Under the pieces are notes generated by a model. The model made no database searches. It was not told the origin of the DNA and saw nothing but the letters and a program-made list of their open reading frames with translations. Source: an uncultured Bacteroidales bacterium (GTDB lineage Bacteria > Bacteroidota > Bacteroidia > Bacteroidales > UBA4417). Taken from it: 39,082 nt of DNA. Below are positions 7,213-39,082 of this stretch, piece after piece. Position numbers and translations under genes: made by a program. Location: NCBI GenBank assembly GCA_903864265.1, contig CAIPFN010000065.1:1-39082 (forward strand). The letters run 5' to 3'. How positions within the stretch are numbered: position 1 is the stretch's first letter; each line of letters starts with the position of its first letter.

Positions 7213-9312
7213 ATGTTTAAAGCCCAAATCCTTCTGAACCTTGTTTTGATATTCATGAATGCAGGAACGGTTTCGGCACTGGAGCCTGACACGACTAAAT
7301 ACATGGGAACTGAAGAAATTGAACAGCAACTGGAGAGTCTGGCCGAAAGGACTGATATTGAATCGGATTACAGCGACTGGGTAGAAGAACTGAATCTGTT
7401 GCGGCAGAGGCCGGTGAACCTGAACTCCGGCGACGAGAATGAGCTGAGGCGTTTGTTTTTTCTCAATGAATTGCAAATTAAAAATTTACTTGAGTACATC
7501 ACTCTGTATGGGCAACTGGCCTCCATTTACGAATTGCAGGTGATTGACGGATTTAACGAAAAAGTCGTAAGTCAGATCCTTCCTTATATTTCATTATCAC
7601 CTTTTGTTACTGAGAGATTTTCATTTAAAAAGGCTCTCAGATATGGAGAACCCGATGTTTTATTCCGTTTTCAGCGTGTATTGCAGCAGTCAAAGGGGTA
7701 TGCAAATGTTCCGGATTCCCTTCGGCTGGCCAACCCGGATGCGTATTACCTGGGAAGCCGGAACAGTTTGCTTTTCAGGCTGCAATATTCGTATAAGGAC
7801 TATCTGAATTTCGGTATAGTTGGCGACAAGGATGCAGGGGAACCCTTATTCCCGAAATCGGATACTTTACACCGGGGATTTGATTTTTATTCGGTTCATC
7901 TTTTCCTGAAAAATATGGGTTTCGTCAGGCAGATAGCGCTTGGCGATTATCACGTTCAGTTCGGGCAGGGCTTAACCATGTGGTCAGGGTTTTCGGTAGG
8001 CAAGGCTGCCGGGTCCGTAGTAATGAGGAAACGCGCCCCGGCCCTGCGGGCTAATGCTTCATCGAACGAGAATTCCTTTATGAGGGGCGCAGCCACAACC
8101 ATAGCTCTGGGGAAATTTGACATTACTGCTTTCTATTCCAACCGCAGGGTTGATGCCAACCTGCTTGCTGTGGATTCGATGCAGGCGGCGGAAGAAATGG
8201 TGTCGGCACTGCAGCTAAGCGGGTATCACCGTACGCCCGCCGAACTGGCCGATAAAGGAGCCATACATGAAGTGGCCGAAGGCGGGCATATGGCGTACAA
8301 CGGGCAAAGGCTGAGGGCAGGCCTTACGTTGTTTCATGTTGATTACGATCTGAAGTTTCAAACCCGGGATGAATTATACAGGAAATTTCAGCCTGTGCTG
8401 AATTCAAATACCTATGCCGGTTTCGATTATTGTTTTAATTATAGGACGCTCACCCTGTACGGCGAAGTCTCCGGGCAAATGCATGCAGGGCTTGCCCTGC
8501 TGCAGGGGCTTTCTTTCACTCCCGATCCCAGGCTCGCTTTTGCCATGGTCTATCGCAATTATGAAAAGGACTTTGTGAATAATTTTAATGCAGCATTCGG
8601 CGAAGGTAGCAGTACGAACGAGAACGGGTTATATATGGGCATGGTAACCAGCCCGTTCAATGAAATCACCCTGAGTGCGTATGCTGATATTTACCGCTAT
8701 ACCTGGCTTAAGTATAGGGTCGACGCCCCTTCTTACGGGCGGGAGTATTCGCTGCAGCTTGTGTATAATCTCTCACGTCGCGGGGATGTTATTTTTGGAT
8801 TCAGGAACATGGTTAATCCAATGAATGTGGCTTTTAGCGATGGGAAAATGAACCAGGTGGGCGAGTCGGAGCGGGATTACTACAGGCTGCAGTTAAATTA
8901 CCAGGCATTTCCCTGGCTCAAACTGCAGAGCCGTGTTGAAATCACCCGGCGACGGGCTCAGGGCAGGGAACAGGAAAGCGGGAGCCTGATATACCAGGAC
9001 TTTCAGATCAGGCCTGAAAATAAAGGCTGGTCGGCAGGGTTCAGGTATTTGCTTTTTGACACCGACTCGTACGATACGCGTCTTTATGCCTTTGAACAGG
9101 ATGTACCTTACACTTTTTCTGTACCGGCCTTTGCTGGAAAAGGAAGCCGTTTTTACCTGCTGCTGAGTTCAAAATTATCCGGAAAATTTTCAGTAAGCCT
9201 TCGCTTTTCGCAAACATGGTATAGTGACAGGAGTGTGATCAGCAGTGGCCTGGACGAAATTGAAGGGAATAAAAAATCAGACCTAAAGATCGTGCTCAGG
9301 CTATCGTTATAA
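7213..9312 (+). CDS. Helix-hairpin-helix domain outer-membrane protein
   Basis: This 699-aa protein has a signal peptide (about residues 1-22). Residues about 55-130 hold a ComEA-like helix-hairpin-helix region, seen in RQRPVNLNSGDENELRRL and in IYELQVIDGF. The remaining ~550 residues are strand-rich, aromatic and end like a beta-barrel (VLRLSL). This architecture is widespread in Bacteroidota. In exported proteins the HHH need not bind DNA, though a role in DNA uptake or surface binding cannot be excluded. It is probably cotranscribed with the small barrel gene 24 nt upstream. After the stop there is a short hairpin (GCTTTT GAAA AAAAGC) without a clear T-run. Confidence 0.8.
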   Translation: MFKAQILLNLVLIFMNAGTVSALEPDTTKYMGTEEIEQQLESLAERTDIESDYSDWVEELNLLRQRPVNLNSGDENELRRLFFLNELQIKNLLEYITLYGQLASIYELQVIDGFNEKVVSQILPYISLSPFVTERFSFKKALRYGEPDVLFRFQRVLQQSKGYANVPDSLRLANPDAYYLGSRNSLLFRLQYSYKDYLNFGIVGDKDAGEPLFPKSDTLHRGFDFYSVHLFLKNMGFVRQIALGDYHVQFGQGLTMWSGFSVGKAAGSVVMRKRAPALRANASSNENSFMRGAATTIALGKFDITAFYSNRRVDANLLAVDSMQAAEEMVSALQLSGYHRTPAELADKGAIHEVAEGGHMAYNGQRLRAGLTLFHVDYDLKFQTRDELYRKFQPVLNSNTYAGFDYCFNYRTLTLYGEVSGQMHAGLALLQGLSFTPDPRLAFAMVYRNYEKDFVNNFNAAFGEGSSTNENGLYMGMVTSPFNEITLSAYADIYRYTWLKYRVDAPSYGREYSLQLVYNLSRRGDVIFGFRNMVNPMNVAFSDGKMNQVGESERDYYRLQLNYQAFPWLKLQSRVEITRRRAQGREQESGSLIYQDFQIRPENKGWSAGFRYLLFDTDSYDTRLYAFEQDVPYTFSVPAFAGKGSRFYLLLSSKLSGKFSVSLRFSQTWYSDRSVISSGLDEIEGNKKSDLKIVLRLSL

Positions 9313-9494
9313 CAATCAATGTATTGTCAATTTATTTTTGGTAGCTTTTGAAAAAAAGCCGAATTCGAGGTCCGTCCGCCTTTCCTGATTTGTTCGTATG
9401 TATCATCAATTCAGGGTTTGTAAGAGTTTGCGGAAGAGGTAATAACTTTTTTATCTGAAGGAAGGCTCAGGCATATTAGATTGAGAAATTAGTT

Positions 9495-9502
9495 TATTTT
9501 TG
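9495..9502 (+). promoter_or_regulatory. Possible -7 element (TATTTTTG) for the POT transporter gene
   Basis: TATTTTTG matches TAnnTTTG and lies 47 nt before the ATG at 9550. A TTG occurs at 9481 but is too close to serve as a -33 element. Confidence 0.45.
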
Positions 9503-9549
9503 CTTCACAGCAAACCACTTAAACTTTATATAAACTAAATCGTACAGTT

Positions 9550-11415
9550 ATGTTTAAACAACACCCAAGGGGATTGATCGTTGCGTTTTTCACCAATATG
9601 GGCGAGCGTTTCGGTTTCTACACTATGATGGCTATTCTTGTGCTTTTTTTGCAGGCGCGGTATGGCCTTGACGAAGAAGCGGCAGGCGAAGTCTACAGCT
9701 GGTTTTATTTCGGCATTTATGCTCTTGCTCTGGTTGGTGGGCTTCTGGCCGACTATACCAAGAAGTACAAGACCGTTATACTTATAGGGCAGATCGTTAT
9801 GTTTGCGGGGTATGCTGTGATGGCACTTCCCGGTTTGCCACTGGCGTTAACCATTGCCGGCTTATTTACCATTGCACTTGGAAATGGTTTGTTTAAAGGC
9901 AACCTGCAGGCTGTGGTAGGCCAATTGTATGACGATCCGAAATACTCGAAATTCCGCGATTCCGCCTTTATGGTTTTTTATATGGGGATCAATGTAGGAG
10001 CCTTTTTTGCACCTTTTGCCGCAACAGGCATACGGAACTGGTGGCTCAAATCAAACGGTTTCCTGCACGATGGCAGTTTACCTGCTGTGTGTCACCAATA
10101 TATCAACGGTACTCTTGAAGATCCAGGCAAACTGCAGACCCTGGCCAATAAAGTGAGCTTAAACGGACCTGTAACGGATCTTTCGGTTTTTGCCCATACA
10201 TATCTTGACGTTTTTGCCCGTGGGTATAATTATGCCTTTGGCATTGCTGCCATAGCCATGCTGATATCACTCACTGTTTACCTGGTTTATAGCAAACTCT
10301 TACCCAACAAGGAAAAAGTGGCACCTAGCAGTACGGATGTGAAGATGGAGAAAAAGCCACTGACCGGTGTTTTCTCTCTGCTGATTGCTATGGCCGTAGG
10401 AGCCGCAATTTATTTTACAACCCATAACAGGGATATAGCGTTTGCTTTTGGGCTTTTTGCCGCTTTTGTGGCCTGGATTGTCCAGATATCAACCAAGGAA
10501 GAGCGTCCAAGAATCACGGCTCTGCTGATGGTTTTCCTTGTGGTGATTTTCTTTTGGATGTCGTTCCACCAGAACGGGCTTACGCTAACCTTTTTTGCAC
10601 GGGATTATACAGTAAAGACGGTGGGAGCATTTACCAATATCTTCTTTAATCTAGGTTCAATTCTTTGTTTTATTGGTTCGATTGCAGGTTTGATTTTGCT
10701 CTTTAATAAGAAAAAAACTATTAAAATTGGCGGACTAATAATGTTCTTAGTTTTGGGTTCATTATTAATATATATTGTCACAGGCTATGACAAAACTTTA
10801 GCGAATATCATCAATCTCCCAAGTTATTTGAGGGCAACTGGCTTCTTAGAAAATAATTCTATTTCACCCGAAATCTTCCAGTCCTTCAATCCGCTCTTTA
10901 TCGTTTCGCTGACGTTTCCGGTGATGGCATTTTTCTTATGGCTCAACAAGCGCGGACTTGAACCCTCGACCCCTAAAAAAATCGGTATCGGTATGATCAT
11001 AGCGGCTGTAGGTTTCGGAATCATACTGATTGCTTCGCTGAACCTGGTATCGCCCCACGAATTGAAATTTGTGGATGCAAGTGGGATTACCAAGTTTAAC
11101 CCCGTTCCCGACAGTTCGAGAGTAATGCCTTACTGGCTGATGAGTTCCTATCTTATACTTACGATAGCGGAACTGTTTCTCAGTCCTATGGGTTTGTCAT
11201 TTGTTTCGAAGGTGGCTCCTCCCCGTTTCCAGGGTCTGATGCAGGGCGGCTGGTTGCTGGCTACAGCGGTTGGCAACAAATTGCTGGTTGTGGGCAGTTT
11301 CTTCTGGGGAAAACTCGACCTCTCTCATTTATGGCTGATTTTCATAGTCTGCTGTCTCTTATCTGCTGCTTTTATTTTCAGCATCATCAAGCGGCTCGAA
11401 AAAGTAACCCATTAA
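9550..11415 (+). CDS. POT/PTR2-family peptide:H+ symporter (MFS)
   Basis: This is an inner-membrane proton-coupled di/tripeptide transporter of the POT family, 621 aa with about 12-14 hydrophobic segments. Seen motifs are NMGERFGFYTMM on the first helix (residues 16-27), GGLLADY, and the PTR2 signature region GNGLFKGNLQAVVGQLYDD followed by FMVFYMGINVGAFFAPF. A hydrophilic loop of about 70 residues follows the fifth helix. The canonical ExxER proton-coupling motif reads NxxER here. A stretch near 10650-10860 is noticeably richer in A/T and in TTA/CTA/ATA codons than the flanks. It is monocistronic with a downstream hairpin. Confidence 0.9.
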   Translation: MFKQHPRGLIVAFFTNMGERFGFYTMMAILVLFLQARYGLDEEAAGEVYSWFYFGIYALALVGGLLADYTKKYKTVILIGQIVMFAGYAVMALPGLPLALTIAGLFTIALGNGLFKGNLQAVVGQLYDDPKYSKFRDSAFMVFYMGINVGAFFAPFAATGIRNWWLKSNGFLHDGSLPAVCHQYINGTLEDPGKLQTLANKVSLNGPVTDLSVFAHTYLDVFARGYNYAFGIAAIAMLISLTVYLVYSKLLPNKEKVAPSSTDVKMEKKPLTGVFSLLIAMAVGAAIYFTTHNRDIAFAFGLFAAFVAWIVQISTKEERPRITALLMVFLVVIFFWMSFHQNGLTLTFFARDYTVKTVGAFTNIFFNLGSILCFIGSIAGLILLFNKKKTIKIGGLIMFLVLGSLLIYIVTGYDKTLANIINLPSYLRATGFLENNSISPEIFQSFNPLFIVSLTFPVMAFFLWLNKRGLEPSTPKKIGIGMIIAAVGFGIILIASLNLVSPHELKFVDASGITKFNPVPDSSRVMPYWLMSSYLILTIAELFLSPMGLSFVSKVAPPRFQGLMQGGWLLATAVGNKLLVVGSFFWGKLDLSHLWLIFIVCCLLSAAFIFSIIKRLEKVTH

Positions 11416-13039: not shown

Positions 13040-13735
13040 TCAATTGTTTATCACCAGTCGGTAGCCTATATTGTGCACATTCTCAATTTTAACTCCTGTA
13101 TCGGAGCGCAGCAGTTTTCGTAAGCGTGAAATAAAAACGTCGAGACTGCGGCTTGAAAAGAAATGATCGTTTCCCCACACTTTGTTCAGTATATCTTCTC
13201 TTTTCAGGATATTCCCGCTATGGGCAAGCAGAAAGGAAAGCAACTCCGCCTCCCGGTGGGTGAGAGATTGTATTTCGTTTCCGTTGATGAGCTTCAGTTC
13301 CAGTTTCGAAAACATAAAATTGCCTATCCGCAGTACGGATTCTTTTTGCATGCGGGAGGGATCGATGCTGCTGCGTTTGAGAAATACTTCGATTTTCAGA
13401 ATCAGTTCTTCTATACTGAAAGGTTTGGTGATATAATCATCCGCTCCCAGTTGCAAGCCATATATCTTATCGTCGCGGGTTGATTTGGCCGACAGGAACA
13501 ATATGGGGACGGCTTCGTCTTTTTCCCTGATTTTTCGGGCCAGGGTGAACCCGTCAATTTTAGGAAGCATCACATCCAGGATATAGAGGTCATAGTTGCC
13601 ATTGGCAATCTTCTCGTAGGCGGTTATGCCGTCTTCGCAGGAATCAATGGTGTAGCCGGCTCTTTCGAGGTTGTCGCGGGTTACAAACGAAAGGGTCAGG
13701 TCATCTTCAACGTATAAAATTCGTGCATTCCTCAT
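13040..13735 (-). CDS. OmpR-family response regulator (RprY-like)
   Basis: This 231-aa two-component transcription regulator has a receiver domain at residues 1-122 with the acidic pair Asp11-Asp12, phospho-acceptor Asp54 (YILDVMLPKIDG) and Lys104 (YITKPF). A winged-helix DNA-binding domain occupies about 133-231, with LTHREAELLSFLL and a C-terminal NIGYRLVI hairpin. It is the output partner of the kinase immediately upstream, whose TGA stop overlaps this ATG by one base (TGATG), indicating translational coupling. Architecture and pairing resemble RprXY of Bacteroides. It lacks the PglZ-type effector of PorX, so it is not the canonical T9SS regulator. Target genes are unknown. Confidence 0.94.
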   Translation of the reverse strand: MRNARILYVEDDLTLSFVTRDNLERAGYTIDSCEDGITAYEKIANGNYDLYILDVMLPKIDGFTLARKIREKDEAVPILFLSAKSTRDDKIYGLQLGADDYITKPFSIEELILKIEVFLKRSSIDPSRMQKESVLRIGNFMFSKLELKLINGNEIQSLTHREAELLSFLLAHSGNILKREDILNKVWGNDHFFSSRSLDVFISRLRKLLRSDTGVKIENVHNIGYRLVINN

Positions 13736-15009
13736 CAGTTCAGTTGTTTTTGAGTGATTTCCAATAAAAATGTTGTCCCCTGAGCCGGGGCCGGATCAAG
13801 GCTGATTTTCCAGTGGTGTGCTTCGCAAATGCTCTTTACATAAAACAAGCCCAGTCCAAACCCTTTCACATCGTGCACATTGGCTGTAGGTATCCTGTAG
13901 AATTTCTGAAACACCCTTTTCTGATGGGCACGTCCGATGCCAGGACCGTTATCGCTCACGGTAACCAGTATAGTGTTGATTTTCCGTGTCGTTCTGATTG
14001 TTATTTCGGGTGTATCGCCGGCATATTTCACGGCATTATCCAGCAGGTTGTAAAAAATATTGGTCAGGTGCATGCGGTCGCCTTCAATATCTCCGACCTT
14101 TTCGGATAAATCTGTTTTTATGATTACAGGTTTACTTTGATTTGCCTTGCAGTTTTCGACTACATGGTTTATGATGTCGTTCAGATCAAGCATTTCCATC
14201 CGCAACTGGAACCCGGTTTTTTCAATACGTGCTATCTGTAATACTTTGTCCACCTGGTCGTTCAGTCGGTTCACCTCCTGCTTGATCACAGACCCGTAAA
14301 TCAGAATGCGGGAAGGCTCACTGATGGATTCGGGATTCGATATCACATCGGCTGCAATGTTGATACTTGCAATGGGCGTTTTAAATTCATGCGTCATGTT
14401 ATTGATAAAGTCGCGCTGAAGTTCCGACAGTTGCTTTTGCCTGAGGATGACGAAAATGGAATAGGCAAAAAATATGACCGATACCGCCAGAATCCCGACC
14501 AGGAAAAACCATATGGCCATATCGCCGGCAATGGTATTGGTGAGCAAAGGGAAGTTGACGCCGAAATAATAGTTGTACCCGCTGTATTTGGGGAGGTTAA
14601 CGGAAACCGCATCCCCTTTTACTTTGCCTGTATTAAAGACATAGTTGCCATATTCCATTACATTGGTTTCGCAATTATAGATGCCATATTCAAAGTCGGT
14701 TTGAATGTTATACCTGGCAAATTCAATTTTCAGGTAGTGCTCCAGCACATTGGCGTCCAACTCGCTGTTCACGTCCACCACAAAGTAATTCGACGACAGC
14801 TGCCTTACCGGATTAGGCGTAGAAGGCATGGAATGATTAAACTTATATATTTTGGTAGCTACATTCCGCAGGCAGATGGTGACCGTTTGAGCAAATTGCT
14901 TCTCCTTATTACTCCATTCCTTTTTCATGAAATAGAGCTGAATGGCAATGATTCCTATAATAGCAATGGCTCCTAACAGAACTACATACCTGATATGTTT
15001 GTATCGCAT
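13735..15009 (-). CDS. Sensor histidine kinase (RprX-like)
   Basis: This 424-aa inner-membrane sensor has helices at about residues 8-27 and 165-188 enclosing a ~135-residue periplasmic sensing region of no recognised fold. No PAS domain or clear HAMP follows. The H-box is FINNMTHEFKTPIASI with phospho-acceptor His207. The ATPase domain has an N-box IFYNLLDNAVKY (318-329), G1 DNGPGIG (353-359) and G2 GFGLGL (383-388), so all catalytic elements are present. It is the first gene of a two-gene operon with the response regulator. The nearby T9SS-linked cassette makes surface-protein control conceivable, but this is only proximity. Confidence 0.94.
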   Translation of the reverse strand: MRYKHIRYVVLLGAIAIIGIIAIQLYFMKKEWSNKEKQFAQTVTICLRNVATKIYKFNHSMPSTPNPVRQLSSNYFVVDVNSELDANVLEHYLKIEFARYNIQTDFEYGIYNCETNVMEYGNYVFNTGKVKGDAVSVNLPKYSGYNYYFGVNFPLLTNTIAGDMAIWFFLVGILAVSVIFFAYSIFVILRQKQLSELQRDFINNMTHEFKTPIASINIAADVISNPESISEPSRILIYGSVIKQEVNRLNDQVDKVLQIARIEKTGFQLRMEMLDLNDIINHVVENCKANQSKPVIIKTDLSEKVGDIEGDRMHLTNIFYNLLDNAVKYAGDTPEITIRTTRKINTILVTVSDNGPGIGRAHQKRVFQKFYRIPTANVHDVKGFGLGLFYVKSICEAHHWKISLDPAPAQGTTFLLEITQKQLN

Positions 15010-15448: not shown

Positions 15449-16441
15449 TTAAAAGCTGGGATTGCCCATTTTGTGAAACCGGTTCGGGTCAATGTGCTTC
15501 CGAAACATCCAGGCGAAAGATATCTCGTGGGCGCCGCCCGATTTTATGGTGAGCCTCGAAATAGTGTAGTCGAAGCTATAACCGAGTTTATAATCTTTTT
15601 GCTGTATGCCAATCAAAGCTATCACCGCATCGGGATTTCCAAAGGTATGCCGCAGCCACAACCCGCCCACAATCGGATAGGTATTGGCATACATGCCGAT
15701 ATTCAGTTGATGGAAACTGCCCTGTTGCACATACACCACGTTGGGCGAAATGGAGAAATTACGCAGATCCGATCCATCCATCCCCTGAAAAAAGTCGATC
15801 AAAATCCCTGAATGTATCGTCCATCGCATCTTCAGCCTGTTGGAGCTGCCTTCATAAAAAGCCATATCGGGCCGGCTGAGGTGGTTTACGGCAATTCCCA
15901 GATAAAAACTTTCCTTAAACCCGCCCAGCAGCCCGGCACTAAAGTCCACGTTTCCCGTGTTAAGCTTTGGGGGCATGTATTCCCTGGTGGGTTCAATATT
16001 TCCTGTATTGATATCAATCTGGTCGTAAAAAATCAATTTATTCCAGTCGAGCCGGTATTGCATATACCCGGCCTGCATGGCTGCGTTCAGCACTATGTAG
16101 TGTGAGGCCTGCAGACGGTAGGAGTAAATGCCGTGAACGCTGAACCTGTTGTAAATGCCTCCGCCTCCAATATCGGCATTGGCAATTACCCCCAGCGCGC
16201 CGGCTATTTTGTTGAATTGCTCATCCCAGGTGGCACTGTAGCTCACATACCCTTTTTTGAGGCTGGGCCACTGATTGCGATAATTAAACGTGATCCTCTG
16301 GTCCAGTTTAGCTCCCGCCAAAGCCGGGTTCAGGTATAGCGGGTTAGCATAAAACTGCGTGTAGATCACATCCTGGGCAATGCCCCTGGTAAAGCAGGCG
16401 AGCATTATGGACAAAAGCAGGGTTGTTGTTGTAGTTTTCAT
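15449..16441 (-). CDS. PorP/SprF-family type IX secretion membrane protein, copy 1
   Basis: This 330-aa protein has a signal peptide ending near RGIAQ and then the family hallmark DVIYTQFYANPLYLNPALAG, followed by YRNQWPS and VSYSATWDEQF. The remainder is a predicted outer-membrane barrel with IGGGGIYNRFS and AGLLGGFKESFYLGIAVNHL, as usual for PorP/SprF. Members assist type IX secretion or surface attachment of specific cargo, with SprF serving the type B adhesin SprB as the best-known case. The gene starts 6 nt after the stop of the 791-aa type B cargo gene, so it is very probably that cargo's partner. A paralogue of the same length lies at 32807. Confidence 0.93.
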   Translation of the reverse strand: MKTTTTTLLLSIMLACFTRGIAQDVIYTQFYANPLYLNPALAGAKLDQRITFNYRNQWPSLKKGYVSYSATWDEQFNKIAGALGVIANADIGGGGIYNRFSVHGIYSYRLQASHYIVLNAAMQAGYMQYRLDWNKLIFYDQIDINTGNIEPTREYMPPKLNTGNVDFSAGLLGGFKESFYLGIAVNHLSRPDMAFYEGSSNRLKMRWTIHSGILIDFFQGMDGSDLRNFSISPNVVYVQQGSFHQLNIGMYANTYPIVGGLWLRHTFGNPDAVIALIGIQQKDYKLGYSFDYTISRLTIKSGGAHEISFAWMFRKHIDPNRFHKMGNPSF

Positions 16442-16447
16442 TCGGCA

Positions 16448-18823
16448 CTATTTTAAAAGCATTACGGTTCCTTGTTGCGGGGACTTTTGGACGAAATTGT
16501 AGGTTACGGGAGCGTTGTAAATCACCACCCAGGTGTACAGGTCAGGAGGACAAGGCATTCCCTTGAAAGTTCCATCCCATCCCTTATCGATATCGTCGGA
16601 GCTGAACAACTGCTGGCCCCATTTATTGAATACCATCATTTTAAAAGTGATTTCGACCTTATGGTTATATTTGGCAAGGAATTGGTCATTCAGCCCGTCG
16701 CCGTTAGGTGAAAAAACATTGGGTATCCATATCAGCAAATCACAGGGCCTCAATGTCACTGTATCGCTACCCTGGCAGCCATGTGAATCAGTGACTATAA
16801 CCCAATACATTCCTTCGGCGGTGGGTACCAGCTGTGGCTGGGTCGACCCATCCTGCCATGCATAGGAGGCAAACCCTGGTCCGGGATTCAGAACAAGTTC
16901 CGTTTCGGCACATAAGGTATCGTATTCCGAGAGTTGGATGATTGGGTTCGGGAATACCTGTAGCTCAAGGGTATCGGTTTTTGCACAGTTTTTATTATCG
17001 GCGGCCTTCACGGTATATTCACCCGAAGTGTTCAGTTTCAGATGGCCCAGATCCAATTCCGGTCCTGTATGACTTGCCCCGTCGGGACTCGTCCAGGTAT
17101 AGGTAAGCGCCTGGCCCGTGAGCGATCCGGCGCTGAGAACCAGAGGTGTGCCTGCACAGTAATCGCCACCGCCGGCGGTGAAAATCTGGGGCACCGGTAT
17201 AATTTCCACAGCTCCCCTGGTGTAGATGGAAGGTATTTCGTAGCCAAAGCTCGAATACACGACGCTAACCAGTAAATTCCACTGCAATTCGGTATACCCT
17301 GCTGCCTGGCCGTAGAAATTGAGTTTGAACAGAAGGTCTTCGCTTAGTAAAGTTACCGAATCGGATGCGCTGAAATCAATCTGAAGTATGCCAGGCGAGA
17401 CCAGCGAGAAGGTTAGATTGCCGTTATTCAGGATCGTGTTAATCTGTGAAAGACCATTAAAAGTCAGGATGGAGGAATCGAAGGCCATCTGTATGGTGAA
17501 GGCTGAAATATGAGCGAAATCATAGGCCATTACCGGTATTTCGATGGGCAGACTTATGCAGCTCAGCACGTCGCCGGCCAGCACTCCCACTTCGCCGGTC
17601 ATGTTGTTCAGTATGGTAAATTGTTTTGACGTTATGCAGCCATTGGCATCTCTTACCCAGGCAAAATAAGTGCCGGCATAAAGCTTGGTAAAGCTGTTCA
17701 GCAGCTGCCAGTTTGTTCCGTTGAGCGAATAAGTTAACGGTGTAGCCAGGCCGCCGGCTATGATTGTAACATGGCCGTTGGCGTTGCTGTTGGTTGAGGA
17801 AGAAGTCTGAATTTCAATGATCTCAGGACTGCTTACCATAATTGTCAGTGTCGTGGCCAATGCACACTGCCCGCTGTCGGGCGTAAATGTATAAACAGAA
17901 GTTCCCGTTGTACCGGTGTTGACGGCGGATGGAATCCAGGTTCCGGTGATGTTGTTCAGTGATGTATCGCGCAAAGCAGGAGCTGTTGAATTCAGGCACA
18001 ATGGACCTATAGGGGCAAATGCAGGAATAGTTTCAGTCGTTACCGTTGCGACAAGCGTTGCCGGTTCAGCACACTGCCCGCTGTCGGGGGTGAATGTGAA
18101 GATGGAAATTCCTGTCAGGGCTGTATTTATTGCAGCAGGCATCCATGTCCCGGATATCCCGTTCAACGAGGTGGCCGGCAGTAAAGGAGGAATGCTGTTC
18201 CGGCAAAGGGTAACCAGGGATGCAAACACCGGCAGCGTCTCGTTGCCGAGGGTAATGATAACAGAGGATTCAGCAGGCTGACAACTTCCGCTACGCCCGA
18301 ATCCTGTGGCGGTAAGGGTAAGGGTTACCGAGCCAAGCATCCTATCAGCAGGGCCGAAAAGGTAAACCGGATGTAAGGCTGTGGTATCGTTAAATGTGCC
18401 ATCGCCACTGCTGCTCCATCGCAGACTGTAATAGCCCGAAGCCGTGGCGCCGAGAGGCGTGAACGGATTGTTGCTGCAACTTGTAGTTCCAGGGCCGGCA
18501 TACGCCAGTGGCAGATCAAATACGTGTATGCTGCCCAGTTCAAGGCTGTCGCAACCCGACATGCTGGTTTGCAGTGCCGACAAGGTGTATTCGCCGGCAT
18601 TCATGTTCCATGTAATGGTTACTGTATCAGCGGTTTCGGGTAAGAGAATGATGCTCCCCAGCGGGTCAGTCAATGACCAGGAATAAGTGGAGCCGGAATC
18701 GCCATCGAGGCGGTAATGCCGTTCAGCGCCCCTGCAAACACTGTCGATCACATATCCCTGGCCGTCTGCCGTGTAGGCTGCTGCAAGCAATAAGGTCAAC
18801 AATATGGATCTGAGCGTTTTCAT
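16448..18823 (-). CDS. Secreted multidomain protein with cohesin-like domain and T9SS type B sorting domain, copy 1
   Basis: This 791-aa protein has a signal peptide (about 1-21). An Ig/PKD-like domain follows (22-105), then a domain with LRWSSSGDGTFND (107-195), two ~70-aa repeats containing FTFTPDSGQCA (about 196-330), a SprB-like repeat with AGTYFAWVRDANGC (330-400), a cohesin-like domain (about 408-550; ISAFTIQMAFDSSILTFNGL) and two Ig/PKD-like domains. The C-terminal ~95 residues begin IPNVFSPNGDGLND and include FNKWGQQLFSS and WDGTFKG, the gliding-motility-associated (type B) sorting domain. It should therefore be exported by the type IX system and attached to or released from the surface. 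Its start lies 1 nt after the stop of the 226-aa gene, and PorP follows 6 nt later. Confidence 0.93.
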   Translation of the reverse strand: MKTLRSILLTLLLAAAYTADGQGYVIDSVCRGAERHYRLDGDSGSTYSWSLTDPLGSIILLPETADTVTITWNMNAGEYTLSALQTSMSGCDSLELGSIHVFDLPLAYAGPGTTSCSNNPFTPLGATASGYYSLRWSSSGDGTFNDTTALHPVYLFGPADRMLGSVTLTLTATGFGRSGSCQPAESSVIITLGNETLPVFASLVTLCRNSIPPLLPATSLNGISGTWMPAAINTALTGISIFTFTPDSGQCAEPATLVATVTTETIPAFAPIGPLCLNSTAPALRDTSLNNITGTWIPSAVNTGTTGTSVYTFTPDSGQCALATTLTIMVSSPEIIEIQTSSSTNSNANGHVTIIAGGLATPLTYSLNGTNWQLLNSFTKLYAGTYFAWVRDANGCITSKQFTILNNMTGEVGVLAGDVLSCISLPIEIPVMAYDFAHISAFTIQMAFDSSILTFNGLSQINTILNNGNLTFSLVSPGILQIDFSASDSVTLLSEDLLFKLNFYGQAAGYTELQWNLLVSVVYSSFGYEIPSIYTRGAVEIIPVPQIFTAGGGDYCAGTPLVLSAGSLTGQALTYTWTSPDGASHTGPELDLGHLKLNTSGEYTVKAADNKNCAKTDTLELQVFPNPIIQLSEYDTLCAETELVLNPGPGFASYAWQDGSTQPQLVPTAEGMYWVIVTDSHGCQGSDTVTLRPCDLLIWIPNVFSPNGDGLNDQFLAKYNHKVEITFKMMVFNKWGQQLFSSDDIDKGWDGTFKGMPCPPDLYTWVVIYNAPVTYNFVQKSPQQGTVMLLK

Positions 18824-18824
18824 T

Positions 18825-19505
18825 CTATTTTTTCTTATCTCCGGGGGTGTACTGATAGATATGCGAACTGCCGGGCTTCGGGTTAACCGTTACCAACACA
18901 GAGTTAGATGCAAGGTTGTTGCTCCCATAGGCATCACTGACTCTTGTCACGGAGTAAACAGTGTTCGCCAAGGGACTGACGTTGAGTATGAAAGGGCTGG
19001 CGTTGATATCGGTGTAGGTAGTGGTGGTGATGCCATCAAAAACATCGATGCTCCACGGGGCCGTTCCTGTAAGGGTTATATTAAGCGTCGCCTGTTCGCC
19101 CAGGCAAATGGGTGAGGGTTGCAGCAGGGTTGCGGTGGGTAAGAATTCCAGAACGGTAATTTTACCCACTTTCAGGTTCATGGTACACCTTGCCCGGCTG
19201 GCAGTTACTTTGTAAAAGTAAACTCCGGGTTTTAGCCAGGTAACATTTACTGTTGATCCCAGGCTGTTTCCTGAGCTGAAGAAAGCTTCCGATGCAGGGC
19301 AATTGCCTGGTACTGCTGCAAAATTGACACCGGTAACTTCGTTGTAAAGTTCCCAGGAATAGGTGTCGCCTGGAATTTCCACCACGCTCAAAGTGGTTGT
19401 CTGACCCGTGTACACATTATTCTGAGCCATGGTTTGAGCCATAGCCATCAGTACTGGTATTACTACCAGCAACAGACGCAGAATGATATGTTTAAGTCGG
19501 ATCAT
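18825..19505 (-). CDS. Secreted Ig-like protein of unknown function, copy 1
   Basis: This 226-aa protein has a hydrophobic signal peptide ending TMAQ. Two beta-rich halves follow: an N-terminal Ig/PKD-like domain with GDTYSWELYNEVTGVNF and LKPGVYFYKVTASRARC, and a second with PICLGEQATLNITLTGTAPW, a PKD-like opening. It ends in NPKPGSSHIYQY plus a KKK tail that is shared with the copy 2 homologue. No type A or type B sorting domain is visible. Only one nucleotide separates its stop from the 791-aa start, so the two are surely cotranslated; the A-rich KKK codons may double as the ribosome-loading sequence of the next gene. Position and size recall the small genes before sprB in Flavobacterium, but homology to them is not shown. 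Confidence 0.82.
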   Translation of the reverse strand: MIRLKHIILRLLLVVIPVLMAMAQTMAQNNVYTGQTTTLSVVEIPGDTYSWELYNEVTGVNFAAVPGNCPASEAFFSSGNSLGSTVNVTWLKPGVYFYKVTASRARCTMNLKVGKITVLEFLPTATLLQPSPICLGEQATLNITLTGTAPWSIDVFDGITTTTYTDINASPFILNVSPLANTVYSVTRVSDAYGSNNLASNSVLVTVNPKPGSSHIYQYTPGDKKK

Positions 19506-20565: not shown

Positions 20566-21265
20566 AAAAAGCAGGCGGCCACCAGTGGTGATCGCACAAT
20601 CTCAACGCCCGTGGATACCCAGCGGGAGTGTTTCCGGAATTTGATTTAAAGCGCGTTGTCATGGCCAAATGTTAGTATTCGACATTCGACTTCGGTTTGC
20701 GTATGCCGGCTTGTGAAGGCAACCAGCTGTTGATCCGGGTTCTTTATAAGAGCCTGGAATGCAGCCTGGAATGCAGGCACTTTCCGTCAATCATGAACCG
20801 CAAAACGGAATCGGTTACGGCTTCGCTTTATAAGGTCGCTATTGAGCCAGGCAGGGCTTGTATGGCCTGGGCTGAGCGTTTATGGATAGGGTAGGAGCGT
20901 TTTCTCCCTGTTGGAAGGGCACACTTCGTGAATCACCTATATGTGTTATGTATCGTCGCGGAAGCTGTGGTGTTTTAAATTCCCACAAAAGGTTCCCGGT
21001 TTTTTTAGCGTTTATGAAATCATTCAACAGGTGCACTTTTCAGAAGCAGTTACCTGTTCAATAGTATCATTATCATGGCTTTGGATTCACTGCTATAAGG
21101 CTGTTTCCCGGCAAAGGTCAAACTATACCTGGATTTAACCAGGTCTGTTTTCCGAAGGATCAGGGGAATATAACTCTTTGAATGTCCGGGCCAGAGAGCC
21201 ATCCTTGCTATCTGTCCACTTTCAATCTGGTCTCATCCCAAAGCTATGAGTCTTTATCCTTAACC

Positions 21266-21342
21266 CTTTAATCTTTAACCTTTAGCCTTTAACCTTTAAC
21301 CTTTAACCTTTAGCCTTTAACCTTTAACCTTTAACCTTTAAC
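21266..21342. repeat. Heptanucleotide tandem array, unit CCTTTAA (11 copies)
   Basis: Eleven contiguous 7-bp units; eight are CCTTTAA and three are one-base variants (TCTTTAA, CCTTTAG twice). It lies about 90 nt downstream of the stop codon of the 374-aa gene. Confidence 0.92.
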
Positions 21343-21364
21343 CTTTCCCACCCCCAAGCCATCC

Positions 21365-21434: not shown

Positions 21435-22559
21435 TTATGGTTTAACAGGCAGCAAACCAGGAGCCGGCATTGTTGCACCAGCATTGATGGTTGGTCTTGG
21501 TTTGAGGGTTTGTGTTGCAATATCATTGGCGAAAAGATCGACCCATGGACAAACGGCTGGTGGTCCGCCACCGGCAACGGTATGAACGTCACCCAGCTGA
21601 TCAGCAGGAGGTGCGCTTAAATTGGTTAGCCCATCCACGGCCAGTGCAACCGGTTCGTCAGCAAGACCTTCGTAGTTTACGGTAGTGCTGTGATCCAGAG
21701 TTACCCGTACATAAAGGGACTCTCCTGCAGCGCCTACAAAGCCCGATGGGTCAGCAACGGTATATACATCAGCTGATGCCCATATCCCGGCTGCCAGTGT
21801 CATGGCATGAGGCGTAGTGAAGTTTTTATCGGTAGCCCATTCAACGGTTACTGTTTCTTCGGCATCAACTCCTGTTAAAGTGAAACTGGGTTTCCATGAA
21901 CCGCTGAAATTGGCTGCAACTACTTCATAGAACATGTAGTCAGTTCCGAAGTCGTAAATGACTCCTTCGGGTGCGGTTGCATCATACTGGGCATCGACTA
22001 TGTCGTGAATACATTTGTCGAGGTTTACGCCATAGCCGGCAACCAGCGTTCCTGCTGTGTTGGGAGTAGCACCGTTGAGAAGGTTGGCAATGTCGAGGGT
22101 AAAGGCGTTTTGTGGTAGAATTTTATACACTTTCATGTTTTGCGAAATACAGGCATCAGGTGTTGATGCCGTGTTTCTTACCTGGATTACAACGAAAACG
22201 GGGTTTGCAGGATTGTATGCAAAACTCTTCCATGTAATTGAAACGGTGTTGGTTCCGGTAGCAGCATTATTGTATCCGGTACCTGTAGCTGCTACAATAG
22301 CACTTGCAGGTGTGATTTCCCGGTTGGCGGTGAGCACCCCGGCATTGATGAAGTGCTGATCCTGGGTTACAAACCAGGTGTACTCCTTTGTGCCGGCGGG
22401 TGTGGGAACCGTTACTTCGTAGGTATAAGGCGCTCCTGCGATAGGATGTAAGGCATCTGCGGTAAGGCAGGTAACAGGGCGGGGAGCAAGCTGCCCGTAA
22501 GCAGTTGAGAAGCTAATGGCGATAAGTACCATGATCAGAATAAAAAGTTGCTTTTTCAT
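21435..22559 (-). CDS. Secreted protein of unknown function, cassette family (374 aa), copy 1
   Basis: I do not recognise this family. The protein has a clear signal peptide (MKKQLFILIMVLIAISFSTA, cleavage near YGQ). The mature N-terminus contains an Ig/PKD-like domain (about 22-130) with EYTWFVTQDQHFINAG and NTVSITWKSF. A middle domain (about 150-320) contains DKCIHDIVDAQYDATAPEGV and a strand-rich part with TVEWATDKNFTTPH. Four cysteines are retained in both copies, suggesting disulfides. The tail TLKPRPTINAGATMPAPG ending LLPVKP is proline-rich and identical in copy 2; no type A or B sorting domain is seen. It is 325 nt downstream of the giant adhesin gene and likely its own transcript. 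Confidence 0.85.
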   Translation of the reverse strand: MKKQLFILIMVLIAISFSTAYGQLAPRPVTCLTADALHPIAGAPYTYEVTVPTPAGTKEYTWFVTQDQHFINAGVLTANREITPASAIVAATGTGYNNAATGTNTVSITWKSFAYNPANPVFVVIQVRNTASTPDACISQNMKVYKILPQNAFTLDIANLLNGATPNTAGTLVAGYGVNLDKCIHDIVDAQYDATAPEGVIYDFGTDYMFYEVVAANFSGSWKPSFTLTGVDAEETVTVEWATDKNFTTPHAMTLAAGIWASADVYTVADPSGFVGAAGESLYVRVTLDHSTTVNYEGLADEPVALAVDGLTNLSAPPADQLGDVHTVAGGGPPAVCPWVDLFANDIATQTLKPRPTINAGATMPAPGLLPVKP

Positions 22560-22884: not shown

Positions 22885-25800
22885 TTAGTTTAATTTGATC
22901 ACATCGGGGCGTGGTTTAACTGTTACGGTGATGGTTTGCGATGGCGAAACATTTCCGTGGCAGTCGGCAACCTGGTACGTGACATGGTGAACCACATTAG
23001 CTGTAATGCTTCCCGGAAAGTGAATATTCACCACATAGGTTGATGGTTGCCCGGTGACATAGGTAGCTGGCAAGGCCGGCAAAAAAGTTCCGTCAGCAAA
23101 ATCGATGCGCCAGCGGATTTCGAAAGCACATCCTGAGGGGCAATTGTCGGTGATGGTTGCAAGGTCAAGATCAAGATCGGTATTCCCGGCCACAAAGAGG
23201 TAATATTCGGGCCGGTTAGGCATTATATCGACGGTAGGATCCCAGTAAGTGGCGCCGTAAATATCCTCCACGCAATAACTTAGATCGGCAGGCACATTGA
23301 ATGTTGGAGCCTGGTTATCAATCACAGTGATGGTTTGCGTACACACATCGGAACCCGAAACATTGGTTGCCGTCCAGGTTATAGTAGTTACGCCTACATT
23401 GAAAGTGTAATTCCCGATGGCCCCTGTGCCGGAACCAATGGTAGCTCCGCTCATCACCCACGACCAGGTTACGGGGTCCCCCGCATTCACAAAGGGTTCC
23501 GCTGGATTAACTACAGCATTGCAGGTATTTGTATTTGAGGATGGAGGATCTGAACAAGTGATATCGGGAGGAACAATGATGGTAATAATCTGGATACAGT
23601 GGGTTACATTTCCGCATTTGTCCTTCAATATAAAAGTGCGATCAACAATGATGGGTGAAATTCCTGATTGGGTGTCGCTATATGTGTAAGACTCAATTTT
23701 GCAATTGTCGGTGGCAAGGCCTCCTTCGTTGTTATATTGAGTTTCAGTAATACTTACCGGGGATTCTGAATATACTAAGGGGAGAATTACGGAAACATTT
23801 GTACCGCTTATTATTTTGTCGGGCGGACAGTTAATGATGACGGGAGCTATATTATCATCCACCATAAATGATTCTTCGGCAATCGAGCTGCAGCCAAAAG
23901 CGTCTGTTACTTCAAGGTAGAGTTCGAAAGGGTTTCCACAAGTATTACCCGTAGTTATGTTAGTGTTAATTGCATTGGTAACTCCTGAAATACTCCCGTT
24001 TCCTGAAATGGACCATGCATACGAAGCCATGGCAGAATTTCCAGTATAAATATTGCCGGTTGTTCCTGCACAAACAGGGTTACTCCCGCTAATGACGCTT
24101 ATCGGTAATGGTTGTACTACTACGGTAATGGCCGAATTGAGCGTGCGCTGGCAACCCGTAATGTCAGTTACACTTACCAGGTTATATACATAGGTTCCCA
24201 GGTTGATGGTAGGCGCAAATACAATTGCAGTATTGTTGATGCCGTATGTAGTGATAGTCTGGTTGGATCCACCGTTTATACTATAGGTAAATGTATAGGG
24301 AACAGTTCCACCACTTGCAGTAAATGCAATGAGCGGTGAGGCTCCATACTGGCAGCAGTTTCCTCCGCCATTAACTGTAGCCATAGGTGCAGGAATCACG
24401 GTTAAGTAAAACTGTTTGGTTTGTGGTGTACAACCATAGGAATCGTGCATAGTCAGGTAGTATATCCCTTGTCCCGCTAAAGAGATGTTGGTGATTATAG
24501 GATCCTGCAACGTTGAAGTAAATCCGTTAGGCCCTGTCCAGTTTGTGTGGTATGGTGGCATGCCTCCGGTAATATTGGCATTAAGTTGGACATTCATCCC
24601 CTCGCATATCACATTGGTTCCATTGTTAGCTGAAGGGCTGAAAGAATAAGGCACAGGTGATAAAGTTCCAAAGGAAATATCATCCAGGCCAAAATCATTC
24701 CCTCCGGCAGCCGTTTCGAGGTCAATAATCCGTAAAGTAGCTGATGTGGCTGCACCCGAATTCCATGTCCCATAAAATCTGTCTTTGATCAGCCAGGGGT
24801 TATTCACAATATCAACGCCCGCAGTCAGGGTAGCAATAGTTCCTACCTGAACTCCATTTACTTCGAACCTCAGCTTTGCAAATGGGGCAACATTGTTCAG
24901 ACTCATTGCCCATGCCGAAAAATAATAATCGGTATTAGGGGTAATGGATAAAATTTCTTGCCATACGGTAGGCTGGGGTGCATACTTTGCGCCGTTTACT
25001 ATCATGAAGTTGGCATTACCGATGCCTGTTCCTGAGGTATGGTCGTAGCCCCAGAAGTTTGGGTGAGTGAATTGGGCGTTATTGTAAACTGAATATTCGC
25101 TTTCAGGTGCAATGAGTCCGTTAGCTGCAGGGTCATAATCATAGCCGGAAGTAAAACCGGTGTTCCCGGCTGTGAATGTGCCATTCGAAACCAGTTCATT
25201 CGAAACATTTAAATTAGCTGTTGTTGAACATCCATTCGCCCCGGTTACTATTACCGAATAGGGCCCGGCAATATCTATCACTATTACCTGTGTGGTAAGT
25301 CCGTTGCTCCAAAGGTATGTTCCTCCTCCTGTTGCTGTTAATTGTATCTTCCCGGAAATGGCACAATAATCTGCAGTTATGGAAGCCACAGGCAGTGGTA
25401 ACGAAGTTACACTGACAGAAGCTGAATTGGAGCAACCGGTTAACGGGTTGGTATAGCTGGCTGTATAGGAAGTAGTTACAACCTGACTGACATTGATGGG
25501 GTCGGCAACTGAAGCAGTATAACCCGCAGGGTTTGATGTCCAGTTGATCGTTGGAATCGCGGAAGGTGTTCCCGTAAGGCTCACATTATCAATAGCCCAA
25601 TACCTTCCCCTGTTCGATCCGCAGTAATAGCTGAACCTAAACTGGAAAGTTGTTGAATTGATATAGGCTGATCCAAGATTGAGTATCTCATTCTGAAACG
25701 AAGAAGGTGTTCCTATGTCAACTGTATTGTAGATTATAACCTGGGTCCATGTAGCCCCATTGTTCGTGGAAACTTCAACCTTTGCGAATTCGCCTGTAGT

Positions 25801-32806: not shown

Positions 32807-33799
32807 CTAGAAGCCTGGATGCCCGACTTCGTGAAAACGGTTGGGATTGTTGTGCTTTCGGAAAAGCCAGGCAACCGATATTTCGTGGGCGCCTCCCGAG
32901 CGCATGGTGACCCTTGAAATGGTGTAGTCGAAGCTGTATCCTACCTTATATTCTTTTTGCTGAAAGCCTAGCAATAGGATCAGGGCGTCGGGGTTTCCAA
33001 AGGTATGCCTGAGCCATAATCCTGCTACCACAGGGAATGAGTTCACATACATTCCCAGGTTTAGCTGCCTGAAATTGCCTTGTTGTATATAAACTACGTT
33101 TGGCGATACAGAGAAATTGCGTAAATCTTCCCCATCCATACCCTGGAAAAAATCGATCAGCATTCCGGAATGCAGGGTCCAGCGCATGCGTAACCTGTTC
33201 TCATTTCCGCCATAGAACGACATATCGGGCCTGCTGAGATGGTTAACGGCAAGGCCAAAATACAGGCTTTCCTTAAACCCAGCCAGCAATCCTGCGCTGA
33301 AATCCAGGTTGCCGATATTCAGTTTAGGGGGTAAATATTCCCTTGTTGGCTCAATATTGCCTGTATGTATATCAATCTGATCGTAAAAAAGCAGTTTTTC
33401 CCAATCCAGCCTGTACTGCATGTACCCAGCCTGAATAGCGGCATTTAAAACCATAAAATGCGAAGCCTGCAGGCGGTACGAATAAATACCGCTTGCGCTG
33501 AACCGGTTGTAAACACCGCCCCCTCCTATATCGGCATTGGCTATGATGCCCGCCCCTCCCGATATTTTATCGAAATGCTCATCCCAGGTGGCACTGTAGC
33601 TCACATATCCTTTTGTGATAGAAGGCCACTGGTTACGGTAATTCAGCGTAACCCGCTGATCCAGCTTTCCCCCCGCCAGGGCCGGGTTCAGGTATAAGGG
33701 ATTTGCATAAAACTGGGTATAGATCACATCCTGCGAATAGGCCCGGCTGATCAGAGTAAGTAGCGCGATGGCAATGAGAATTAGTCTTGATGTCTTCAT
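32807..33799 (-). CDS. PorP/SprF-family type IX secretion membrane protein, copy 2
   Basis: Paralogue of the gene at 15449. The ORF track starts at a TTG (33808), but the ATG at 33799 gives MKTSRLIL..., aligning with copy 1 and giving exactly 330 aa. After the signal peptide the same DVIYTQFYANPLYLNPALAG hallmark appears, then DQRVTLNYRNQWPS, GGGGVYNRFS and LRHTFGNPDAL. It starts 9 nt after the stop of the second 791-aa type B cargo gene and is presumably its partner. Differences from copy 1 are scattered and mostly conservative, so both copies look functional. Confidence 0.93.
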   Translation of the reverse strand: MKTSRLILIAIALLTLISRAYSQDVIYTQFYANPLYLNPALAGGKLDQRVTLNYRNQWPSITKGYVSYSATWDEHFDKISGGAGIIANADIGGGGVYNRFSASGIYSYRLQASHFMVLNAAIQAGYMQYRLDWEKLLFYDQIDIHTGNIEPTREYLPPKLNIGNLDFSAGLLAGFKESLYFGLAVNHLSRPDMSFYGGNENRLRMRWTLHSGMLIDFFQGMDGEDLRNFSVSPNVVYIQQGNFRQLNLGMYVNSFPVVAGLWLRHTFGNPDALILLLGFQQKEYKVGYSFDYTISRVTMRSGGAHEISVAWLFRKHNNPNRFHEVGHPGF

Positions 33800-33808
33800 T
33801 TTACTCAA

Positions 33809-36185: not shown

Positions 36186-36893
36186 TTATTTTTTCTTTGA
36201 TACTGGATTATATTGATAAATGTGCGAACTACCCGGCTTTGGAGTAACCGTTAGGGATACTGAATTGGATGATGTGCTGTTAGTTGCAAAAGCATCGGAC
36301 ACACTGATCACCATAAAGGAATAAATTCCCGCTGCCGGTGGAATGAACGGTATCAGGAGTTCGCCCGTGGTAATGTTGCTGACAGTTATATTTTGTATGC
36401 CTCCATTCGGGCCGGTGATGCGATAGGTTATACTCCAGGGGGCGGTGCCTGTGAGGTGGATCGAAAGGCTGGTGCCCTGGCCCAGGCAGATTTGCGGTGG
36501 TTCCAGGCTGAGTGTGGCTGTGGGTAACCATTGTTGGACAATGATTTTCCCTGCTTTCAGGTTCATCGAACAGCCGGGTTTACGGGAGGTGACTTTGTAG
36601 AAATACGTGCCCGGGCTCAGCCAGGTCACATGAACTATGGGTCCGGTAGTTATACCGCCTTCGAAAAATGCCTCCGTTGGCTGGCAGTTGCCGGGAACAG
36701 TCACGAAGTTGACACCCGAAACATCATTATAGAGTTCCCAGTTGTAGGTGTCGCCGAGCATTTCAATTACACTGAGTTCGGTTGTCTGACCAACATTGAC
36801 AATATTCGTCTGTGCCAGGGCAGGAGCCAGGGCCAGTAGCAGTGGTATTACTACCATCAGCGTACGAATAAGTCTGAATATAGGTCGTCTCAC
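36186..36893 (-). CDS. Secreted Ig-like protein of unknown function, copy 2
   Basis: Homologue of the 226-aa protein at 18825, here 235 aa. The start is GTG (36893): no in-frame ATG exists before the upstream stop, and the next ATG (Met13) would leave a very short signal peptide. Shared features are the signal peptide ending ALAQ, GDTYNWELYNDVSGVNF, LSPGTYFYKVTSRKPGC, a PKD-like second half (PPQICLGQGTSLSIHLTGTAPW) and the tail TPKPGSSHIYQY ending KKK. The middle of the second domain has an insertion relative to copy 1 (around RITGPNGGIQN). Its TAA stop precedes the 791-aa ATG by one base, as in copy 1. Confidence 0.82.
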   Translation of the reverse strand: MRRPIFRLIRTLMVVIPLLLALAPALAQTNIVNVGQTTELSVIEMLGDTYNWELYNDVSGVNFVTVPGNCQPTEAFFEGGITTGPIVHVTWLSPGTYFYKVTSRKPGCSMNLKAGKIIVQQWLPTATLSLEPPQICLGQGTSLSIHLTGTAPWSITYRITGPNGGIQNITVSNITTGELLIPFIPPAAGIYSFMVISVSDAFATNSTSSNSVSLTVTPKPGSSHIYQYNPVSKKK

Positions 36894-37912
36894 CAGTTTG
36901 ATTGCTTTAGTTTATTTGGTAAGCATCTCATTAATAGGTATAATCCTCCCGTCCTGCTCATGAATTACACATGCAGGCACTATCCACCCCGGCGGACGGT
37001 CCATGCTAAAGGGACTTCCACGGGTAAACGAGTCATATGATCCATGATGGGCAATTCCTGCACTTGCTGTCCGACTCTCCTCAGAAGTGCTGCCCGCAAT
37101 GCCTTTTCGTGGCCTGTAAAAATGTTTAAATACGGAACCAGGTGGCTTGGCTGCGCAGGTGTGCTGACGCACCGGCTCCTGGCCGGGCGGTGGCTTACAC
37201 CTCGGCATACCCGGAGTGCCCCATATTTGACTCACCTCACATTCAGGTGGGTAAACAGGTCCATGCTTGTTATAATTTAATATCATTCAATATTTTACAT
37301 TAAATGAACGTGCGGAAAATGGTGGTCGGCTCTTTCCGTAATCGCACCGGATCATCGTTTTTCGGTATACCTGCTTGTTGCGAAACTGTCAGATAATCTG
37401 TCAGTATACGGCAAGCAATATAATCCGGGCTTTACAGGGCAGCAGTTTCCCATTGGATACACTGCAGCATACCAACTTCATTTCATAAGCTATTGAATTA
37501 TAGTGTGATAAATGGATCGTTTCCGATCCGGGGGCGTTATCTGAATGATGCTGCTATGCCATGAGGATAGGGCAGCAGGAGTTGCCTTGCTGCAATGCTT
37601 GGGCTGTGTTGCGCTCGCCAGTACCCGATTTCCATTTTTATGGGTTGAATGCTACAGAGTGCCAAAACAAGGTTTTTTATCAGGGTAAAGCCAAAGCCAG
37701 GCTTTAACTTGTCTTCTGTTGCGCCGGGTGCTCAACACGCCCTTTTTCAGATGCAGGGCAATTCAGTGTATCAGGTAGCACAACACCGACAGGAGTTTTC
37801 ACGCATGCGGGGTGAATGCGGTGGTTGTATATATATCCGGTTTTTTTACCGTGGATTGATAATACATTCCGATATCACCTTGCATAATCAGGTTGTTCTC
37901 ATGCCCTTTGTC

Positions 37913-37944
37913 CCCTCTGCCGTCGGGCTAACGACGGCGGAGAG
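37913..37944. other. G/C-rich hairpin downstream of the 374-aa gene, copy 2
   Basis: CCTCTGCCGTCG pairs with CGACGGCGGAGAGG (two-base bulge) around GGCTAA. It looks like a dispersed intergenic hairpin of REP type; there is no T-run. Confidence 0.5.
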
Positions 37945-37958
37945 GATTACCGGGTTTG

Positions 37959-37974: not shown

Positions 37975-37984
37975 GTTTAAACCC

Positions 37985-39082
37985 TTACGGTTTAACAGGA
38001 AGTAAGCCAGGAGCCGGCATAGTTGCCCCTGCATTGATGGTTGGCCTTGGCTTGAGGGTTTGGGTTGCAATATCGTTTGCAAACAGGTCGACCCATGGAC
38101 ATGCCGAAGGCGTTCCGCCGGCTTCAGTGTGTATATCGCCGAGTTGCTCGGCAGGAGGCGCGCTTAAATTGGTGAGTCCGTCCACTGCTAAAGCTACCAC
38201 TTCGTCAGCCAGCCCCTGGTAGTTTACGGTAGTGCTGTGATCCAGTGTTACCCGAACATAAATAGATTCACCTGTGGCACCAACTGTTCCGCTCGGGTCA
38301 AGTGCAGTATACACATCGGGTGATGACCATATTCCGGCAGCAAGTGTCAATGCATGAGGCGTGGTAAAGTTTTTATCGGTTGCCCACTCAACATATACAG
38401 CTGCTTCGAGGGTAGTGCCGCCTAAAGTGAAGCTGGGTTTCCATGAAGTTGAAAAGTTAGCGGCTACTACTTCGTAGAACATATAGTCCGTTCCAAAATC
38501 GTAGATTACACCTTCGGGAGCTGTTGCATCATACTGTGCCTCAACTATATCATGAATGCATTTGTCGAGGTTAGCGCCATAGCCGGGAACCAGAGTTCCG
38601 GCCGTTATGGCAGTAGCCCCGCCGTTGAGGTTGGCAATATCCAGGGTAAAGGAATTCTGAGGGATGATTTTATACACTTTCATGTTCTGTGATATACAGG
38701 CGTCAGGGGTTGAAGCCGTATTTTTAACCTGTATAACTACAAACACAGGGTTGGCCGGATTGTATGTGAAACTCTTCCAGGTAATGTTTACCGTATTGGT
38801 TCCGGTAGCCGGGTTGTTGTACCCCACGCCTGTTGCACCAATGAGATTACTGGTTGGAATGATTTCACGGTTGGCTGTGAGTACTCCTGCATTGATAAAG
38901 TGCTGATCCTGGGTTACGAACCAGGTGTACTCCTTAGCCCCGGCCGGGGTAGGAACATCGATGGAATAGTCAAATGGCGTTCCTGCAATAGGATGAAGGG
39001 CATCTGCGGATAAACAGGTCACCGGGCGTGGAGCAAGCTGCCCGTATACAGTTGAGAAACTAATGGCAAAAAGGGCCACGAT
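37985..39082 (-). CDS. Secreted protein of unknown function, cassette family (374-aa type), copy 2, 5' end missing
   Basis: The reading frame is open to the window edge; the track's start at 39079 is a GTG inside the signal peptide (aligned to VLIAISFSTA in copy 1), so the true start lies a few codons outside. The 366 visible residues align end to end with copy 1 and most positions are identical, including EYTWFVTQDQHFINAG, DKCIHDIV, EGVIYDFGTDYMFYEVVAANF and NFTTPHA. Variable positions cluster after the signal peptide (TPFDYSID versus APYTYEVT) and in the TLGGTTLEAAVY region. The last 27 residues are identical to copy 1. Function is unknown. Confidence 0.85.
   Translation of the reverse strand: MVALFAISFSTVYGQLAPRPVTCLSADALHPIAGTPFDYSIDVPTPAGAKEYTWFVTQDQHFINAGVLTANREIIPTSNLIGATGVGYNNPATGTNTVNITWKSFTYNPANPVFVVIQVKNTASTPDACISQNMKVYKIIPQNSFTLDIANLNGGATAITAGTLVPGYGANLDKCIHDIVEAQYDATAPEGVIYDFGTDYMFYEVVAANFSTSWKPSFTLGGTTLEAAVYVEWATDKNFTTPHALTLAAGIWSSPDVYTALDPSGTVGATGESIYVRVTLDHSTTVNYQGLADEVVALAVDGLTNLSAPPAEQLGDIHTEAGGTPSACPWVDLFANDIATQTLKPRPTINAGATMPAPGLLPVKP

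Follow-up and report, generated by a model that had tools for sequence, protein, structure and literature searches.

To our knowledge, current descriptions of the T9SS have every substrate bear its own sorting signal. Chaperone-usher pili and the type V donor-strand pili of Bacteroidota follow a tip-link-anchor order, in which a terminal strand docks into the neighbouring subunit. The sorting domains described for the T9SS are of types A, B and C (PMC10202324). Type B proteins need carriers of the PorP/SprF family and bind to them, and adhesins are kept at the surface by such pairs (PMC9143113, PMC12618676). The same kind of pair, exemplified by SprB-SprF and PG1035-PorP-PorE, closes the gene cluster described here, but the anchor of this cluster appears to carry further proteins that are without sorting signals. 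In the sprC-sprD-sprB-sprF operon of F. johnsoniae, too, further genes come before those for a type B adhesin and the carrier, the likeness being one of gene arrangement. The Cys-x-Cys tail through which SprF of F. johnsoniae attaches to the gliding track (PMC12635249) is absent from the PorP/SprF copies of our cluster.

The window analysed is a stretch of 39,082 nucleotides from an uncultured Bacteroidales bacterium (GenBank assembly GCA_903864265.1, contig CAIPFN010000065.1). Its cluster comprises, in order, the genes for a giant adhesin, a protein of a 374-residue family (F374), a small Ig-like protein, a type B T9SS protein of 791 aa and a PorP/SprF protein; this order recurs in related Bacteroidales genomes, and every gene of the cluster but that of the giant occurs twice in the window (features listed below). 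The initial annotation had picked out the open reading frame of F374, which is real, and had not noticed that it lies on the minus strand; the four-gene duplication and the related tails that end the giant and small Ig neighbours had also been missed. The type B protein with its adjacent PorP/SprF gene (15449-18823) forms an anchor module, and no T9SS sorting domain was found in the window chain on any member other than the last. From the comparisons set out below, we judge it reasonably probable that F374 serves as a connecting subunit in a surface adhesin made up of several proteins, which is anchored via the T9SS and held together by docking of tails onto N-terminal domains (N-domains).

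Features of the F374 cluster in the window
Feature	Coordinates	Strand	Remarks
F374 copy 1 (374-aa family member)	21435..22559	-	PKD-like N-domain, second beta-domain and C-terminal tail
F374 N-terminal PKD-like domain, about residues 33-150	22110..22463	-	Kin to small Ig N-domain (hhalign 93.9, E 1.6e-7)
F374 tail, 38 residues common to both copies, CPWVDLFANDIATQTLKPRPTINAGATMPAPGLLPVKP	21438..21551	-	Core QTLKPRPTI; strand 347-353 predicted, then disorder
F374 copy 2	37985..39082	-	5' end lost at contig end
Giant adhesin, 2929 aa	22885..31674	-	13 PKD_6 and 4 PKD_5 repeats; no T9SS sorting domain
Giant conserved C-terminal domain, last 150 aa, ends TVTVKPRPDVIKLN	22888..23337	-	Same genomes as F374
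Small Ig-like protein copy 1, 226 aa, ends VTVNPKPGSSHIYQYTPGDKKK	18825..19505	-	
igN, the N-domain of the small Ig protein	19104..19424	-	Proposed acceptor for F374 tail
Small Ig-like protein copy 2	36186..36893	-	56% identical; tail core kept
Anchor protein, 791 aa, T9SS type B (CHU_C)	16448..18823	-	CHU_C E 2.5e-13; TIGR04131 E 1e-11
Anchor N-domain	18488..18757	-	Proposed acceptor for small Ig tail
Anchor copy 2, 791 aa	33809..36184	-	64% identical
PorP/SprF-family outer-membrane carrier	15449..16441	-	PF11751 E 6.7e-52; TIGR03519 E 3.7e-61
PorP/SprF copy 2	32807..33808	-	76% identical

Several further features of these loci deserve mention. Genes for a sensor kinase and a response regulator stand right after PorP/SprF (13040-15009, minus strand), as they do in three other loci (L042, L043 and L044), and this pair is a possible regulator of the cluster. 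A short tandem repeat of GGTTAAA units lies 3' of F374 copy 1 (about 21255-21345, minus strand). A long spacer separates F374 from the small Ig gene (36894-37984, minus strand), with matching gaps elsewhere; in 11 loci it holds a short conserved stretch that reads N-[KR]-[HD]-G-P, at times in variant form, and may represent a leader peptide or else an element of the DNA or RNA. An Rfam search of the window and three loci found nothing. The anchor of locus L013 (12766-17829) has 12 matches to the SprB repeat and so may itself be an adhesin. In loci L134 and L043, chain genes are broken by stretches of undetermined residues, where bases are masked or unresolved, which limits how far these genes can be read.

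F374 opens with what reads, by eye, as a Sec-type N-terminus, MKKQLFILIMVLIAISFSTAYGQ, and its two copies agree at 85% of 364 aligned residues. In Gaoshiqia sediminis (locus L016), two diverged F374 genes lie in tandem (8587-9633 and 10001-11185). The suggestion that this is an unrecognised secreted family is supported. None of 29 members matches NCBIfam at E 0.01, the sole Pfam match in the family is a weak one to fn3 in a single member (E 0.0036), F374 has no match above the curated cut-off of either library, and the sequences of solved structures in the PDB give none. Nor do sorting-domain profiles of type A or type B recognize its C-terminus, as had been supposed: F374 has no type A match (TIGR04183 or PF18962) at E up to 1, with 0 of 29 members matched in NCBIfam at 0.01, and none for type B (TIGR04131 or PF13585), a test that the 791-aa anchor of the same cluster passes. 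For type C (the ChiA-type C-terminal domain of about 100 aa), F374 has no match in NCBIfam, a library in which a type C model is unconfirmed. AlphaFold models F374 at low confidence (mean pLDDT 61, from nine sequences) as a pair of beta-domains, with a last strand at 347-353 and disorder beyond it. The best Foldseek matches to this model were two-domain beta proteins at a TM-score of about 0.25 and an rmsd of about 13 angstroms, which is uninformative. The initial annotation had also placed the tail after a beta-rich region, and in the model it does come after the last predicted beta-strand, in predicted disorder.

What had drawn attention to the tail was the identity of its last 27 residues in the two copies despite several synonymous differences, taken as a sign of strong selection. 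That observation is partly confirmed, being real but overstated. The identical run is in fact 38 residues long with 15 synonymous differences (dN 0.000 and dS 0.88, as against 0.122 and 1.34 in the remainder of F374), and in permutations of these two copies a run of at least 38 arises anywhere with P = 0.03 and at the C-terminus with P = 0.0005. The body of F374, however, also holds identical runs of 30 and 25 residues, so the two-copy comparison lends little weight to the idea of a special tail. An alignment of 29 F374 homologues is more telling as to what is constrained. Because the tails vary among these homologues, an outcome that the initial annotation had itself named as refuting, strict invariance of the 27 residues has to be given up; what stands is a constrained C-terminal motif in which a core, D-A-x-Q-T-[LI]-K-x-R-P-x-[IV], is conserved. 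The F374 motif occurs in 29/29 members as against 1/110 other genes. R355-P356 is kept in all 29, with a hydrophobic residue two positions further on, and R355 ranks third in information content across the family. The core positions 345-358 average 2.56 bits and the whole protein 1.80, while the distal 16 residues (359-374) fall below that mean at 1.44. Mostly 13-19 residues follow the RP (range 5 to 27), among which an F or L near the end and a terminal P recur. No family in Pfam or NCBIfam matches the tail.

Such a tail might be nothing but the closing strand of an Ig/PKD-like domain together with the remains of a linker, kept for folding, with the cluster encoding independent secreted proteins. 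AlphaFold indeed pairs 347-353 within the fold and leaves the remainder disordered, and PKD and Ig domains of this phylum commonly close with a strand and then P-x-P, as many domains of these very proteins do. We nevertheless consider this quite improbable: conservation extends beyond the fold to the RP, the hydrophobic residue, the F/L and the terminal P, PRP-x-[ILV] is kept in giants, and the occurrence of the genes in the same genomes and their fusions (see below) would need another explanation.

The neighbours of F374 end in a comparable way. All 24 giants carry an RP-x-[ILV] ending, as against 1 of 110 other genes; this form of the motif was adopted because a P-x-P regular expression undercounted the giants, catching just 4/24. 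AlphaFold models the last 150 residues of the giant, again at low confidence (mean pLDDT 67, from seven sequences), with a strand at 134-140 and after it an end of poor confidence, and Foldseek found nothing for this domain at E 0.001 or below. In the small Ig protein, the tail PKPGSSHIYQY is unchanged between copies that are 56% identical overall. Comparison of C-end profiles finds the small Ig protein and the giant related (93.3%); the match of F374 to the giant is weak (13.6%), in register and on the tails, and owing to this weakness the F374 and giant tails may be convergent.

A layout common to the chain emerges: a short strand plus tail closes the proteins other than the anchor, and a related PKD-like N-domain opens the downstream partners. 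This N-domain sits after the signal peptide, and the sorting domain is confined to the last protein. By inspection, giants do not start with the related N-domain. In hhalign comparisons the N-domain of the small Ig protein matches that of the anchor (96.3); that of F374 shows no significant match to the anchor's (2.1%), and neither the F374 nor the small Ig N-domain matches the repeats of the giant (1.3 and 8.0).

From tip to membrane, the proposed order would then be the giant PKD adhesin, F374, the small Ig-like protein, the type B anchor and PorP/SprF in the outer membrane, the strand-plus-tail of each protein docking onto the N-domain of the next. The PRP tail of the giant would bind F374, the F374 tail would bind igN, and the small Ig tail would dock on the N-domain of the anchor. 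The chain would resemble chaperone-usher and type V pili in its tip-link-anchor order and terminal-strand docking, an analogy that stops at anchoring, here by the T9SS, and no gene for an usher, chaperone or lipoprotein-type subunit was noted in the cluster. Proteins without a signal might come to or remain at the surface in one of two ways, by following behind the anchor or by associating with it later. Cryo-EM of the translocon has type A substrates exiting sorting-domain first together with their carrier (PMC10994853), from which we conjecture that partners at the N-terminal end of an anchor could trail behind.

Docking of the tail into a neighbouring subunit, as raised in the initial annotation, is the idea that fits best, but the gene context points to a hetero-chain and not to the homopolymer it had invoked. 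An F374 homopolymer, in which each tail inserts into another F374 as in a donor-strand pilus, would suit a tail placed after a beta-rich body and the tandem F374 pair of Gaoshiqia sediminis; it appears very improbable to us, since most other loci have one F374 per cluster, set between two constant partners, and a hetero-chain is favoured because the neighbours bear related tails and N-domains.

Among 393 genomes of the order, scored on the best candidates per genome (a scheme that distant members could escape), F374 was found at E up to 0.001 in 16, with two further weak matches; the C-terminal domain of the giant occurs in the same 16, with one weak match besides, and igN in exactly the 16 that carry both. 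In one of them (G503) the giant and F374 lie on separate contigs. A class-wide sample of 395 genomes yielded the window's own genome, one weak match and no others. Wherever the sequence is long enough, igN is directly downstream of F374, except in locus L057, which has no igN in the roughly 3 kb between F374 and the contig end.

The principal alternative to docking along a chain takes the tail for a short T9SS secretion signal of a new kind, recognized by PorP/SprF or by the translocon; the giant, F374 and the small Ig protein would then each be exported independently. These proteins do adjoin a PorP/SprF gene while being without a type A or B domain, and known sorting signals are likewise C-terminal and exist in short forms (PMC11969387). 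In our view this alternative is unlikely. In several loci igN has a sorting domain fused to it, of type A in L053 (TIGR04183, E 9.3e-7) and of type B in L046, L055, L056 and L060 (TIGR04131; L055 under the curated cut-off), and F374 retains its tail beside these fusions to a real sorting domain. In locus L058, igN is fused to the whole anchor, whose sorting domain is weakly type A (E 0.0081, below cut-off), and a tail-like NPLPRSSRIYLKN is retained within the fused protein as a linker before the anchor N-domain. No sorting-domain profile of type A or B matches the tail, and the tails vary with chain position and track the N-domain type of the next gene. Small Ig tails that end in HN, HD or HH (three proteins) precede N-domains of the "inter" type, and IYQY, IYKY and IYRY tails precede anchors; in a tree of small Ig bodies those three proteins are not one clade, which, in these small numbers, fits a tail matched to its partner.

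Docking of tail onto N-domain may extend beyond F374. A profile built from N-domains of the anchor and intermediate types finds matches in 148/295 sampled genomes of the order, a figure that includes PKD-like repeats inside giants. We selected 20 extra loci that carry the N-domain and have no F374, and wrote the tail pattern after viewing their sequences. The gene before an N-domain gene ends in a tail in 27/32 cases, as against 10/45 otherwise (Fisher P 5.6e-8, in counts that are not independent since the loci are related); for a strict I-x-H-x tail the figures are 24/32 and 3/45, with 0/110 among other genes. On sequence evidence, then, these loci mostly obey the rule of a tail followed by an N-domain. 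We tentatively entertain, at somewhat less than even likelihood, the broader proposition that Bacteroidota surface chains are built by a general tail-to-N-domain code and that signal-less proteins are pulled through the T9SS behind one anchor.

In the literature, within which subscription journals were thinly covered, we came across no account of proteins that lack a signal and dock on a type B anchor, nor of the arrangement as a whole: probably a chain of separately made proteins that holds a giant adhesin on the surface, with the tail of each inserted in the leading domain of its successor. A tail and its N-domain make a pair small enough to be assayed for binding directly. If one anchor does carry a signal-less chain, many unannotated surface proteins of Bacteroidota would gain a route to the surface, and the assembly order and partner of such proteins would be readable from the genome.
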